Assembly: GCA_024399545.1 (NCBI GenBank)
Contig: JAKSNS010000006.1
Coordinates: forward strand, 1-64,000
Source of the DNA: Paludibacteraceae bacterium
Lineage (GTDB): Bacteria > Bacteroidota > Bacteroidia > Bacteroidales > Paludibacteraceae
DNA: 64,000 nucleotides
Reading direction: 5' to 3'
The notes beneath the pieces were generated by a model, which made no database searches, had not been told where the DNA came from, and saw only the letters and a program-made list of their open reading frames with translations. Made by a program: the position numbers and the translations under genes. Shown one piece after another: positions 5,618 through 45,495 of the stretch; positions within the stretch are counted from its first letter, which is position 1; each line of letters opens with the position of its first letter.

Positions 5618-7204
5618 TCAGAAAGGTGCCCCACCAAAGGACGAAGGAGGGGGAAGCTGCGCATCATAGTCGGCAGAGAAATTTGTGTCAGGGTCAGGAA
5701 GTGCATTGTTTGCAGCCCGCGCATCGTTTGTGCGTGACGACAATAGCCCGTGGTATGAGGCGTTACTCTGCTCTATCTCAGTGTTTAACGAGGTAAATAG
5801 CGCAAAATCCTTGTAGAATCGCAGGTCAATATCCTCAGTAGAACCATTACGGTGCTTGGCAATAAGGAATTGTGCCACGCCACGAAGGTCCTTGCCGTTA
5901 TCCTCGAAAATCTTGTAATACTCTGGACGGTGAATGAATGCGACTATATCAGCATCCTGCTCTATGGCACCTGACTCACGAAGGTCTGACAACTGAGGTT
6001 TACGCCCCTCGATGGTCGTTGCACCCTCGCGTTTCTCGCTGTTACGGTTCAGCTGCGAAAGTGCGACGATAGGAATGTTTAGCTCCTTGGCAAGACCCTT
6101 CAGCGAACGGGAGATGAGGCTGACCTCACCCTCGCGCGAGAAGAAGTTCATACCTTGTGCGTTCATCAATTGCAGATAGTCAATGAAAACTATGCGAATG
6201 CCGTGTTCTGAAACTAAGCGCATAACCTTCGTGCGAAGTTCGAGGATGGATAGTTGCGGAGTGTCGTCAATATATATTGGTGCATCCTGCATAGCCTTGA
6301 TTGCAAAATCAATCTTTCCCCACTCCTCGCGGGTTAGTTGCGCACTTCGTACAGTGTTGCCGGGTATTCGTGCGGTAGATACCAAAAGACGGTTGACCAA
6401 CTGCACGCAACTCATTTCAAGCGAGAACATTGCGCATGGTATCTGCTCATGGCCTTTTGAGGTCATCACACCGTCGATGGCAATATTCTTAATCATCGAA
6501 AGTACGAAAGCAGTCTTACCCATCGCTGGACGAGCGGCAATGATGATAAGGTCAGAATCCTGCCAGCCGAAAGTCACTTTATCCACCTCTGCATACCCGG
6601 AAGGAATGCCGGAAATACCCTCTTTTCGCTTGCTTGCCTCCATGATACGGTGCAAAGCCTCCTCAATATAAGGGTTAATCTGGCGTACATCACGCTTCAC
6701 GTTACGGTTTGAAATCTCAAAAATCTGTCCCTGCGTCTCTTTCAAAAGGTCGTCAACGTCAGTTTGGTCATCGAAAGCCTTGGACTGTGTTTCTATGGCA
6801 ACTCGTATCAACTCACGGGCTATATACTTCTGCATCACAATCTTGGAGTAGTATTCCACATGTGATGCGCTATGCGCTTGCGTTGATACGTCAGTGATAT
6901 AATCCAAACCACCGGCAGCCTCGAAATTCCCCTCTTGCTTCAGACGCTCAACGACGGTAATTGCGTCAACAGGCTGTTTGTTGCCAAACAGATGTATGAT
7001 AGCTTCGAATATCTTCTCATTCCTTGGGTCATAGAAATACTCAGGTTTAAGTGTCGAGGCAGCCTCGGAGAGTGCGTCACGGTTCAAAAGTATTGAGCCA
7101 ATGATGCTTGTCTCCATCTCAAGTGCCTGTGGCTGCACATTGCCGAGATTTAGATTTCGGATGTCAAGTTTGGGTGCTTTTTTCTTGGTGTTAGAAACTG
7201 GCAT
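5618..7204 (-). CDS. dnaB: Replicative DNA helicase DnaB
   Basis: A 528-residue hexameric helicase that unwinds DNA ahead of the replisome. The N-terminal primase-binding helical domain covers about 25-130. The RecA-like ATPase domain has Walker A RPAMGKTA (225-232), Walker B in IVFIDYLQL and the late DADIVAFIHRPEYY motif before a low-complexity Pro/Asp/Ser tail. I start at ATG 7204 (MPVSNTKKKAPKLD); the open frame extends 39 codons further upstream into the next gene, but that extension is only a shadow of the overlapping frame. It sits downstream of a GNAT-like gene (8-base gap) and a secreted nuclease gene, so it seems to be the last or second-last gene of an odd operon. Confidence 0.95.
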   Translation of the reverse strand: MPVSNTKKKAPKLDIRNLNLGNVQPQALEMETSIIGSILLNRDALSEAASTLKPEYFYDPRNEKIFEAIIHLFGNKQPVDAITVVERLKQEGNFEAAGGLDYITDVSTQAHSASHVEYYSKIVMQKYIARELIRVAIETQSKAFDDQTDVDDLLKETQGQIFEISNRNVKRDVRQINPYIEEALHRIMEASKRKEGISGIPSGYAEVDKVTFGWQDSDLIIIAARPAMGKTAFVLSMIKNIAIDGVMTSKGHEQIPCAMFSLEMSCVQLVNRLLVSTARIPGNTVRSAQLTREEWGKIDFAIKAMQDAPIYIDDTPQLSILELRTKVMRLVSEHGIRIVFIDYLQLMNAQGMNFFSREGEVSLISRSLKGLAKELNIPIVALSQLNRNSEKREGATTIEGRKPQLSDLRESGAIEQDADIVAFIHRPEYYKIFEDNGKDLRGVAQFLIAKHRNGSTEDIDLRFYKDFALFTSLNTEIEQSNASYHGLLSSRTNDARAANNALPDPDTNFSADYDAQLPPPSSFGGAPF

Positions 7205-43298: not shown

Positions 43299-43405
43299 CT
43301 ATTTCCCCTAAAATTTCTACGTCTTATCCACATCCGCCCAATTTCCACATGAAAAAATCCCCTTTGTTACAATGAAATAATAACTTGGTACAATCTTATT
43401 TTTAT

Positions 43406-43450
43406 GCCATTAGCCGTTACCCAGAAAGCGCAGCCAAAAGCCAATGGCTA
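43406..43450. repeat. 45-base repeat, copy 1
   Basis: Starts GCCATTAGCCGTTACCC and ends AGCCAATGGCTA. It is identical to 44031-44075 at 44 of 45 bases and in the same orientation. Its first 14 bases (GCCATTAGCCGTTA) pair almost perfectly with TAACGACTAATGGC just downstream (43456-43469), so this copy can fold into a long hairpin. Confidence 0.85.
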
Positions 43451-43488
43451 ACGACTAACGACTAATGGCCCAAAAAAGTGTATAGCAA

Positions 43489-43963
43489 ATTTCTAATTGT
43501 AACCGTTTAATTGTAACCCACCACCTAACCATCTGTCTGTCAATACCTATTTACCTCAAAACCGCCAAAAATTAATTGTAACCAATTGTAACCAATTGTA
43601 ACCACCCAACTCTCATAAAATATGCAAAATTTCGTAAATCCCAAAATCGACATTTCCAAATTAACATTAGTTGCGCAAATCTTAACCACCCTTAAAAAAG
43701 ACGTAGCCCAAACGAACCCCTGACCTATCCCAAAGTTGGTTCAAATCTCGAAAAACCGAATTTGAAATGTTAAATTTTCACCTCCAATTTTCCCCACCTC
43801 ATCAATTTTCATCCATTTTTTCCTATAATTCTTCACATCCCATTTTGCGGTTACAATTGGTTACAATTGGTTACAATTAAAATGTCGCCTTTTTGCCAAA
43901 ATCCACCCCTGATACTCAGCCTTTTAACCCCAAGGTTACAATTAAACGGTTACAATTAGAAAT
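43489..43963. repeat. Symmetric nested inverted repeats (30-53-32-245-32-53-30)
   Basis: Outer arms 43489-43518 and 43934-43963 are a perfect 30-base inverted pair. Inner arms 43572-43603 and 43849-43880 are a perfect 32-base pair made of three AATTGTAACC units. The distance from outer to inner arm is 53 bases on both sides, and the core is 245 bases. The 53-base stretches are not complementary to each other, so the symmetry is in spacing and arms only. The arms are built from one unit, AATTGTAACC. No frame of note lies inside. Confidence 0.9.
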
Positions 43964-44030
43964 CTCCTATCCTCCTCCTTGATATAGGAAAAAAAGTCTC
44001 TATAACATTTCGTGTGTAATACATCTTTAA

Positions 44031-44075
44031 GCCATTAGCCGTTAGCCAGAAAGCGCAGCCAAAAGCCAATGGCTA
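44031..44075. repeat. 45-base repeat, copy 2
   Basis: The second copy of the GCCATTAGCCGTTA...CCAATGGCTA repeat, same orientation as copy 1 and differing at one base. The two copies flank the nested inverted repeats, 38 bases outside them on the left and 67 on the right. Confidence 0.85.
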
Positions 44076-44339
44076 ATAGCGTATATGGCGTGTGCCAGCT
44101 AAGCCATCCCTCTAATGCAATCTCCTAAAACTTCAGGAACATATAGAAAAGCGCAGCGTTCTAAGAGAACTATGACTCTATAACCATTCTTTTGCTGAGA
44201 TGTACCTTGCTAACCGCTTAGGCGAACTTACCCACTCAAAACGTTATAGTGCCAAAAAAACTTTCCAAAACATTTGCTCAGTTCAAAAATATAATAGTCC
44301 CCAATTTTTAGACAACTTGCAAGGTTAAAAAATTATTCG

Positions 44340-44347
44340 TACCCTTG
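44340..44347 (+). promoter_or_regulatory. Transposase promoter flanked by a 9-bp inverted repeat
   Basis: TACCCTTG (44340-44347) is a TAnnTTTG variant, 25 bases before orfA. CTTGCAAGG (44316-44324) and CCTTGCAAG (44343-44351) form a perfect inverted repeat around it, overlapping the -7 box. Confidence 0.5.
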
Positions 44348-44371
44348 CAAGCGAAAAATAAAAGTACAGAA

Positions 44372-44677
44372 ATGGGTAGACCTAGTAAATTTGATGCTTC
44401 GTTCATGGCTAAGGTAACCATCGAGGCATTGCAAGCGAAAGAGACCTTGCAGGCATTGGCAAAGAAGTATGGAGTTGCGCCAAGCAAGATTGAGAAATGG
44501 AAGGAGAAACTCCTTCAGAACTCCAACAAAGCCTTCGAATCAGACGCAGAGGACAAGCGCGAAATCAAAAAGCTTAAGGAAACAAACGCAAAGCTTGAAC
44601 GCAAGGTCGGGCAACTAACGCTGGAATGCGATTTTTTTGCGGAAGCCTGCGAGGATGCCGGACTCAAAGTCAGATAG
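44372..44677 (+). CDS. IS3-family transposase OrfA
   Basis: A 101-residue helix-turn-helix protein: MGRPSKFDASFMAKVTIEALQ, then ALAKKYGVAPSKIEKWKEKLL (HTH_Tnp_1-like DNA-binding part) and a leucine-zipper-like coiled coil (EIKKLKETNAKLERKVGQLTLE) for multimerisation. I chose ATG 44372; a TTG nine codons earlier lies in the -7 region and is unlikely. The frame overlaps orfB by 52 bases, and a run of seven T (44632-44638) lies in the overlap near the end of OrfA as a likely -1 slip site, giving an OrfAB fusion transposase. Confidence 0.9.
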   Translation: MGRPSKFDASFMAKVTIEALQAKETLQALAKKYGVAPSKIEKWKEKLLQNSNKAFESDAEDKREIKKLKETNAKLERKVGQLTLECDFFAEACEDAGLKVR

Positions 44678-45495
44678 CAGAACTTGAGAAGAAGCGTCCC
44701 GCAGGCATAAGTCGCAACAGATTCTGCCAGTTGATGGATATTTGCCGTTCAGGCTTATATTACGAACCTGCAGAGGAATCGAAGGAGAACCAGGAAATAA
44801 TGAAGATAATGGACATGTATTTTATGGATCATCCTACTACCGGCAAACGTGGTTTCCGTGACTACCTGAGGCTTATAGGTTATAAGGTTAACATCAAGAG
44901 AGTTAGGCGTTTGATGGATGTCATGGGCATAGAACCTATATATCCAAGGAAATGTCTGAGCAAGGGTGGCGTCAGCAAGTACATCCATCCATATCTGCTC
45001 AGAGGCTTGAATATCACCCATCGCAATCAGGCATGGAGCACCGATATCTCATATATTCCGATGAAAAATGGTTTTATGTATCTATATGCAATCATAGATG
45101 TTTACAGCCGCTATCTTCTCGGATGGAAACTGAGCAACAGTCTTTCTGCTTCTAATGTTTACGAACTTCTGCAGGAATGTGTCGATTTATATGGGGCTCC
45201 AGAGATAGTCAATACCGATCAAGGGAGTCAATATACGACTGCTGACTGGGAGGAACTGCTTAAGCGAAACGGAATCCGCATCTCAATGGACGGCAAAGGC
45301 CGTTGCAAGGACAATATCTGGATTGAGCGGTTCTGGCGTTCTATCAAACAGGATTACATTTACACACATCCGACCGATGATGTCATGGAGCTCCGTAATG
45401 GCATTGATGGATGGATTCGTTTTTACAACTATGAACGGCCGCATCAGGGGCTCGGCGGCTTTGTTCCCTCGGCGTTTTTTGTCGCCGTTGCCTGA
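44626..45495 (+). CDS. IS3-family transposase OrfB (DDE integrase domain)
   Basis: A 289-residue catalytic subunit in the -1 frame relative to OrfA; it is normally made as an OrfAB fusion by slippage. HTH_21-type region first (KRPAGISRNRFCQLMDICRSGLYYEPAEE), then the rve integrase core with DDE residues: Asp in WSTDISYIPM, Asp in IVNTDQGSQYT, and Glu in WIERFWRSIKQDYIY. The end is NYERPHQGLGGFVPSAFF, with the last codons and the TGA stop lying inside a perfect 56-base palindrome (45468-45523). The frame looks intact, so the element may be active. Confidence 0.9.
   Translation: MRFFCGSLRGCRTQSQIAELEKKRPAGISRNRFCQLMDICRSGLYYEPAEESKENQEIMKIMDMYFMDHPTTGKRGFRDYLRLIGYKVNIKRVRRLMDVMGIEPIYPRKCLSKGGVSKYIHPYLLRGLNITHRNQAWSTDISYIPMKNGFMYLYAIIDVYSRYLLGWKLSNSLSASNVYELLQECVDLYGAPEIVNTDQGSQYTTADWEELLKRNGIRISMDGKGRCKDNIWIERFWRSIKQDYIYTHPTDDVMELRNGIDGWIRFYNYERPHQGLGGFVPSAFFVAVA

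Follow-up and report, generated by a model that had tools for sequence, protein, structure and literature searches.

The mirror-symmetric repeat described here, found in a 64,000-nucleotide window (the whole stretch of DNA that was analysed), is probably one copy of a lineage-specific, non-autonomous, MITE-like mobile element that carries arrays of putative binding sites in its arms and was moved in trans. Its copies are dispersed, have homologous arms, share a fixed geometry and an extremely conserved 10-bp unit, and have relatives in sister species. Among the options that a first-pass annotation had offered for this region, the ends of a non-autonomous element are the best supported, with 19 dispersed copies in the genome and relatives in two sister species.

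Two perfect inverted repeats frame the element. The outer arms are 30 bp long (43489–43518 and 43934–43963) and the inner arms 32 bp (43572–43603 and 43849–43880). On each side 53 bp separate the two kinds of arm, and the core spans 245 bp; the annotated 30-53-32-245-32-53-30 layout was thus confirmed. The arms are built from the unit AATTGTAACC, as had also been proposed, with ten exact units at ±128, 138, 148, 213 and 227 bp around a centre at 43726. Alignments of 30 arms and of 18 copies set the limits of the element slightly beyond the mirror repeat (43489–43963), and the following features were assigned.

43478..43974, + strand: whole mirror-armed element, ~497 bp (arm and copy alignments, composition)
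43478..43603, + strand: left arm, with terminus GTGTATAGCAAATTTC, units 1–2, 55-bp spacer and units 3–5 (arm alignment)
43495..43504, + strand: unit 1, AATTGTAACC
43509..43518, + strand: unit 2, AATTGTAACC
43519..43573, + strand: left spacer, from unit 2 to unit 3; its final TT falls in the 32-bp inner arm
43574..43603, + strand: units 3–5, tandem, 10-bp period
43604..43848, + strand: 245-bp core; most conserved stretch CTTAAAAAAGACGTAGCCCAAACGAACCCCTGACC
43849..43974, − strand: right arm, the left arm's inverted and diverged copy, with terminus GGATAGGAGATTTC in reverse complement
43849..43878, − strand: units 6–8, tandem, 10-bp period
43879..43933, − strand: right spacer, inverted-repeat homologue of the left spacer
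43934..43943, − strand: unit 9, AATTGTAACC
43948..43957, − strand: unit 10, AATTGTAACC

With a GC content of 0.36 (window, 0.43), the element is AT-rich; it has a strong strand bias (GC skew −0.47), and its folded strand gave z = −13.8. No open reading frame within it exceeds 49 aa, in agreement with the earlier statement that the region holds no gene. The core, conserved among the copies of the own genome (G000) and two copies in a second genome of the genus (G002), contains no open reading frame and no significant RNA fold (z = −1.15); a structured RNA element was rejected on this fold and on the lack of any Rfam family at gathering score. Imperfect, well-conserved TAGCCC repeats at ~11-bp spacing occupy 43699–43760 of the core and recur in the G002 core at L102 (CGTAGCCCTAACGTAGCCCTGTCCTACCCCAATAATAGCCC); they are possibly a second binding array.

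Other repeats lie close to the window element. A 54-bp repeat (..GCCATTAGCCGTTAGCCAGAAAGCGCAGCCAAAAGCCAATGGCTAA) flanks it on both sides in direct orientation (43398–43451 and 44023–44076), and parts of this repeat also occur beside copies in L061, L072 and L073. A further dispersed repeat of ~190 bp is present at 44086–44266 and in L062 (5492–5604 and 6993–7067), where an IS4-type insertion (~5670–6992) splits it, giving an occupied and empty pair within one genome. At 44345–45495, on the edge of the accessory island, two overlapping frames encode an IS3-like transposase (HTH_Tnp_1 followed by rve).

Each side of the element is a single inverted-repeat arm of ~130 bp. The two halves align as inverted repeats with 72% identity over 122 bp. 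The 53-bp stretches had been called unrelated; however, the spacers of the window element are homologous inverted repeats with 41% identity, a value reached by 0 of 2,000 shuffles. Spacer identity ranges from 39 to 67% across copies (21–27% when shuffled), and in L074 both arms are still plainly alike. The equal 53-bp distances therefore reflect a common ancestral sequence for both arms and few indels since, and the previous argument that symmetric spacing with unrelated content speaks against duplication fails because the spacers are homologous.

Copies were sought throughout the 2.30-Mb genome. A paired-unit search gave 28 matches, and paired-unit and double-unit searches combined with the flanking DNA resolved 18 copies, 12 of them two-armed (C5, C7, C8, C9, C12, C15, C32, C34, C38, C45, C56, which is the window copy, and C65) and 6 one-armed (C4, C14, C18, C23, C24 and C43). 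A search with the related G002 sequence, which is mostly core, recovered nearly all of these and added a thirteenth two-armed copy, C41, and a decayed fragment in C34. The own genome thus holds 19 copies (13 two-armed and 6 one-armed) on different contigs and in unrelated flanks, with pairwise identities of 77–93% among the two-armed copies compared. In all two-armed copies the unit starts are spaced 14, 65, 10 and 10 bp, mirrored, with inner arrays of 2 or 3 units depending on the copy; the single exception is a 1-bp spacer insertion in L065. The genome contains 139 exact AATTGTAACC units, nearly all within element copies, against 3 for a reversed-pattern control, and together with the fold (z = −13.8) this argues that the repeat did not arise by chance, a reading also ruled out by the 19 copies and the relatives in two other species.

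The copies sit between predicted genes in every relative gene orientation, next to neighbours as varied as gyrB, thiC, pyrE, a P-type ATPase gene, gcvH and IS transposases, and a constant gene context was rejected because orientations are mixed. Other dispersed repeats often adjoin them and blur their outer limits. The sequence AAAATAATCAATAATCTGTCTATTTTTTCAGGAAAAGACA often lies directly outside an end, on the left in L060, L064, L066, L068 and L071 and on the right in L061 and L070; it is an extension of the element, a hotspot or a separate 20-bp tandem repeat.

Relatives were found in two sister species. Among the nine genomes of the genus, G002 holds two copies of the core (76–78% identity) with decayed arms, both near contig ends. 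These branch outside the G000 copies (support 0.999), which places the amplification in the G000 lineage. G005 carries a second family without the G000 core, mirror-symmetric in C52 (units at about ±163.5, 102.5, 85.5 and 75.5 from its own centre), C18 (±125, 64 and 47) and C78 (±123, 62 and 45), and partial in C50, C22 and C27. Its unit is mostly AACTGTAACG, most units of C52 read AATTGTAACC, and the units have changed as a set. Three G005 copies carry the terminus TAGCGGATTT, which matches TAGCAAATTT in G000, and a terminus TAG[C/G]RRATTT followed by the unit is common to all three genomes. Loci with the same geometry around different cores had been named as support for the first-pass annotation: the G005 arrays provide mirror symmetry, a different core and nearly the same distance from the outermost to the inner direct unit (78 bp, against 79 in G000), but their layout differs, with an opposite unit interposed. 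The absence of any other copy from related genomes, which would have counted against it, is contradicted by the 19 copies in the own genome and the relatives in G002 and G005.

Outside these three genomes, other genera, plasmids and phages yielded no convincing relative. The searches used did not find the element in six of the nine genus genomes. Across 358 genomes of the family, the terminus with arrays occurred only in G000, G002 and G005, and isolated terminus matches without an array occurred in three other genera; 393 genomes of the order gave only isolated inverted-unit matches. The exact pattern had 11 isolated matches in 84,980 genomes, a collection from which records of the own genome may be absent, and none had a mirror arm. 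No element match was found among 72,556 plasmid or 50,697 phage records, and an assignment as plasmid or phage sequence was rejected accordingly. Among the matches listed from the literature, no relevant paper contains the AATTGTAACC unit.

From these observations we infer protein binding, pairing of the ends and movement in trans. Each end would be an inverted-repeat arm of ~130 bp with five 10-bp putative protein-binding sites spaced 14-65-10-10 bp and mirrored in the other end. A DNA-binding recombinase, whose gene lies or once lay elsewhere, would bind these arrays cooperatively and pair the two ends, and the element would have been moved to other intergenic places by this recombinase acting in trans. 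By analogy, the element would work like a transposon end with recombinase-site arrays; its iteron-like arms are unusual. Tn7, Mu and IS21 carry arrays of transposase sites in their ends; their termini are a constant TG..CA, and they duplicate a few bases of the target. Like these and hAT elements such as Herves (PMC3143072), the present element has several short repeated sites at fixed distances near its ends. Unlike them, it has no transposase gene or target duplication, and the number and spacing of its sites are almost perfectly symmetric. Ends of the Tn7, Mu or IS21 type were rejected, as the termini (GTGGTATAG, GGGGAATAG and others) show neither a constant TG nor a duplication.

MITEs are about 50–1000 bp long, lack a transposase gene, occur in multiple dispersed, mostly intergenic copies and are bounded by terminal inverted repeats and a target-site duplication, with ends like those of an autonomous element that provides the transposase; those described in bacteria mostly have short ends that often match a known IS. 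The present element agrees in size and gene content (~497 bp, longest open reading frame 49 aa), in dispersal (19 copies with different flanks, between predicted genes) and in its inverted ends (a terminus plus ~130-bp inverted arms). In the 13 two-armed copies, none of the offsets and lengths tested gave target-site duplications above permuted controls. Because the direct repeats of MITE insertions fade with age (review, PMC10969869), the missing duplication lowers the case for membership without excluding it, hence the term MITE-like. An autonomous element or transposase sharing the ends was not found in the 358 family genomes. When the coding flanks of five copies (C12, C38, C7, C4 and C45) were searched in the genus, no relative kept both; sister species offered one flank only, or contig ends, at these loci, so an empty site was not demonstrable.

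As in prokaryotic MITEs (PMC10969869, PMC2229807), the copies are short, AT-rich, gene-less and intergenic, number in the tens, have inverted terminal repeats, include truncated relics and cluster with other repeats. However, their ~130-bp arms contain ordered arrays of 10-bp units, whereas prokaryotic MITEs have terminal inverted repeats of ~4–30 bp (PMC10969869, PMC2229807); moreover, no target duplication or known parent IS was seen, and the units are far better conserved than the rest. BrickBuilt, a MITE of Porphyromonas gingivalis (PMC4596501), is similar in copy number (~19), intergenic location, short tandem repeats, many partial copies, and target duplications that are inconsistent or missing. 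Its direct repeats are 23 bp long and form a single internal array, and its terminal inverted repeats are IS5-like and 12 bp long (GAGACC; PMC4596501), whereas here 10-bp units are mirrored in both arms and the ends do not resemble the printed BrickBuilt repeats; a BrickBuilt-type MITE was rejected since unit and ends differ from Table 2 of PMC4596501. REP/BIME sequences with RAYT transposases (PMC2817692) are likewise extragenic repeats of alternating orientation, but the present arrays are mainly direct within an arm, and copy number is low.

The units are far better preserved than the DNA between them. In the 18 AATTGTAACC copies, private substitutions affect 3 of 1,427 bp in units and 120 of 5,642 bp in spacers and core (Fisher p = 9e-9), with the caveat that these 18 copies were first found through the unit itself, although the core-based search added only C41 and the fragment; including C41 weakens the contrast (14/1,506 against 121/5,996, p = 0.003). 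Almost every other change within the units is a C-to-T at position 10. Measured against the majority, the units of C41, which read AATTGTAACG plus further changes, hold 11 private changes in 79 bp, a number that drops to ~5 when AATTGTAACG is treated as an ancestral form in its own right, next to 6/110 in its spacer and 10/244 in its core; C41 is an old copy in which decay is about even across the whole element. The presumed binding word evolves far more slowly than the surrounding DNA, and AATTGTAACC is probably a protein docking site.

This conservation bears on a second reading, which we consider possible but unlikely: a domesticated repeat whose AATTGTAACC arrays are the binding sites of a nucleoid or regulatory protein of the host, with selection preserving the units in place while spacers and core diverge. 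The one-armed copies speak for it, with private changes in 1 of 264 bp of units and 43 of 1,392 bp elsewhere (p = 0.006), despite tree branches of 0.04–0.17. Such intact units are not expected for dead insertions and count against the MITE-like reading. Conversion between copies confined to 10-bp units is implausible, and the even decay of C41, with its other unit form, suggests that maintenance is not automatic. However, rapid turnover of active copies could also explain intact units, and the low copy number, the lack of a constant position relative to genes and the failure of our searches to find the element in six of nine genus genomes fit host maintenance poorly. The protein-bound nucleoid or partition site suggested by the first-pass annotation survives in part: protein binding is likely, but the object is a repeated element and not a single site.

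In a more doubtful alternative, the units would be iterons read by the D5-type primase-helicase of a phage or a satellite, and the element would have spread by parasitising that replication or would act as a decoy for it. In viral contigs, (A/G)GTTACAA(T/G) is clustered in both orientations, and in L208/L250 and L213 the clusters lie near D5_N-DUF5906-Pox_D5 primase-helicase genes. Among non-redundant contigs, a D5 gene was found in 3 of the 11 that carry seven or more units, compared with 0 of 129 others (p = 4e-4). Yet the shared word is just 7–9 bp, the spacing differs, most array-bearing viral contigs showed no D5 gene, none lies within the window or the loci read, and the element matches none of the phage records. 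The association is a lead on the binding protein and not evidence of kinship. The dense GTTACAA/GTTACAG arrays themselves (L208 7251–7480, L250 5227–5455, L213 3511–3755, L220 4998–5400 and L207 4127–4527), some of them near D5-type genes, are candidate phage replication origins.

All six one-armed copies retain the left arm (two-sided p = 0.03). By inspection, the break lies at or beside the boundary of core and right array in four of them, ~60 bp ahead of this boundary in one, and early in the core in C23. Five of the six could be placed on the tree, where they are scattered, so the losses of the right arm look independent; possible causes are polar copying, a deletion provoked by the palindrome, or selection favouring the left half. 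Copying from RNA or single-stranded DNA, as in a retro-type element, would explain the constant retained end, the missing target duplication and the strand-biased composition (GC skew −0.47). We nevertheless regard it as highly improbable: six of six gives no more than p = 0.03, palindrome-provoked deletion could also remove an arm, and no reverse transcriptase or single-strand transposase is linked to the copies. That one half is an assembly artefact has a negligible chance of being correct and is in substance refuted: although the assembly consists of 67 contigs, no support for an artefact was found, 13 two-armed copies with independent flanks share one geometry, and comparable arrays occur in other species.

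The MITE-like reading thus describes a small family whose long arms hold putative binding sites in strict order, and for which neither a parent nor a target duplication was seen. More speculatively, and with doubts that outweigh our confidence, selection acting in place once the element had inserted may have preserved the 10-bp putative binding words of this symmetric, gene-less family, even where one arm was lost, with the word changing as a set between subfamilies (AATTGTAACC, AATTGTAACG and AACTGTAACG) while the mirror layout was kept. If true, the sites would be co-evolving with a DNA-binding protein. Identifying the protein that reads AATTGTAACC would reveal either a trans-acting transposition machinery or a host protein through which dispersed repeats stay in use.
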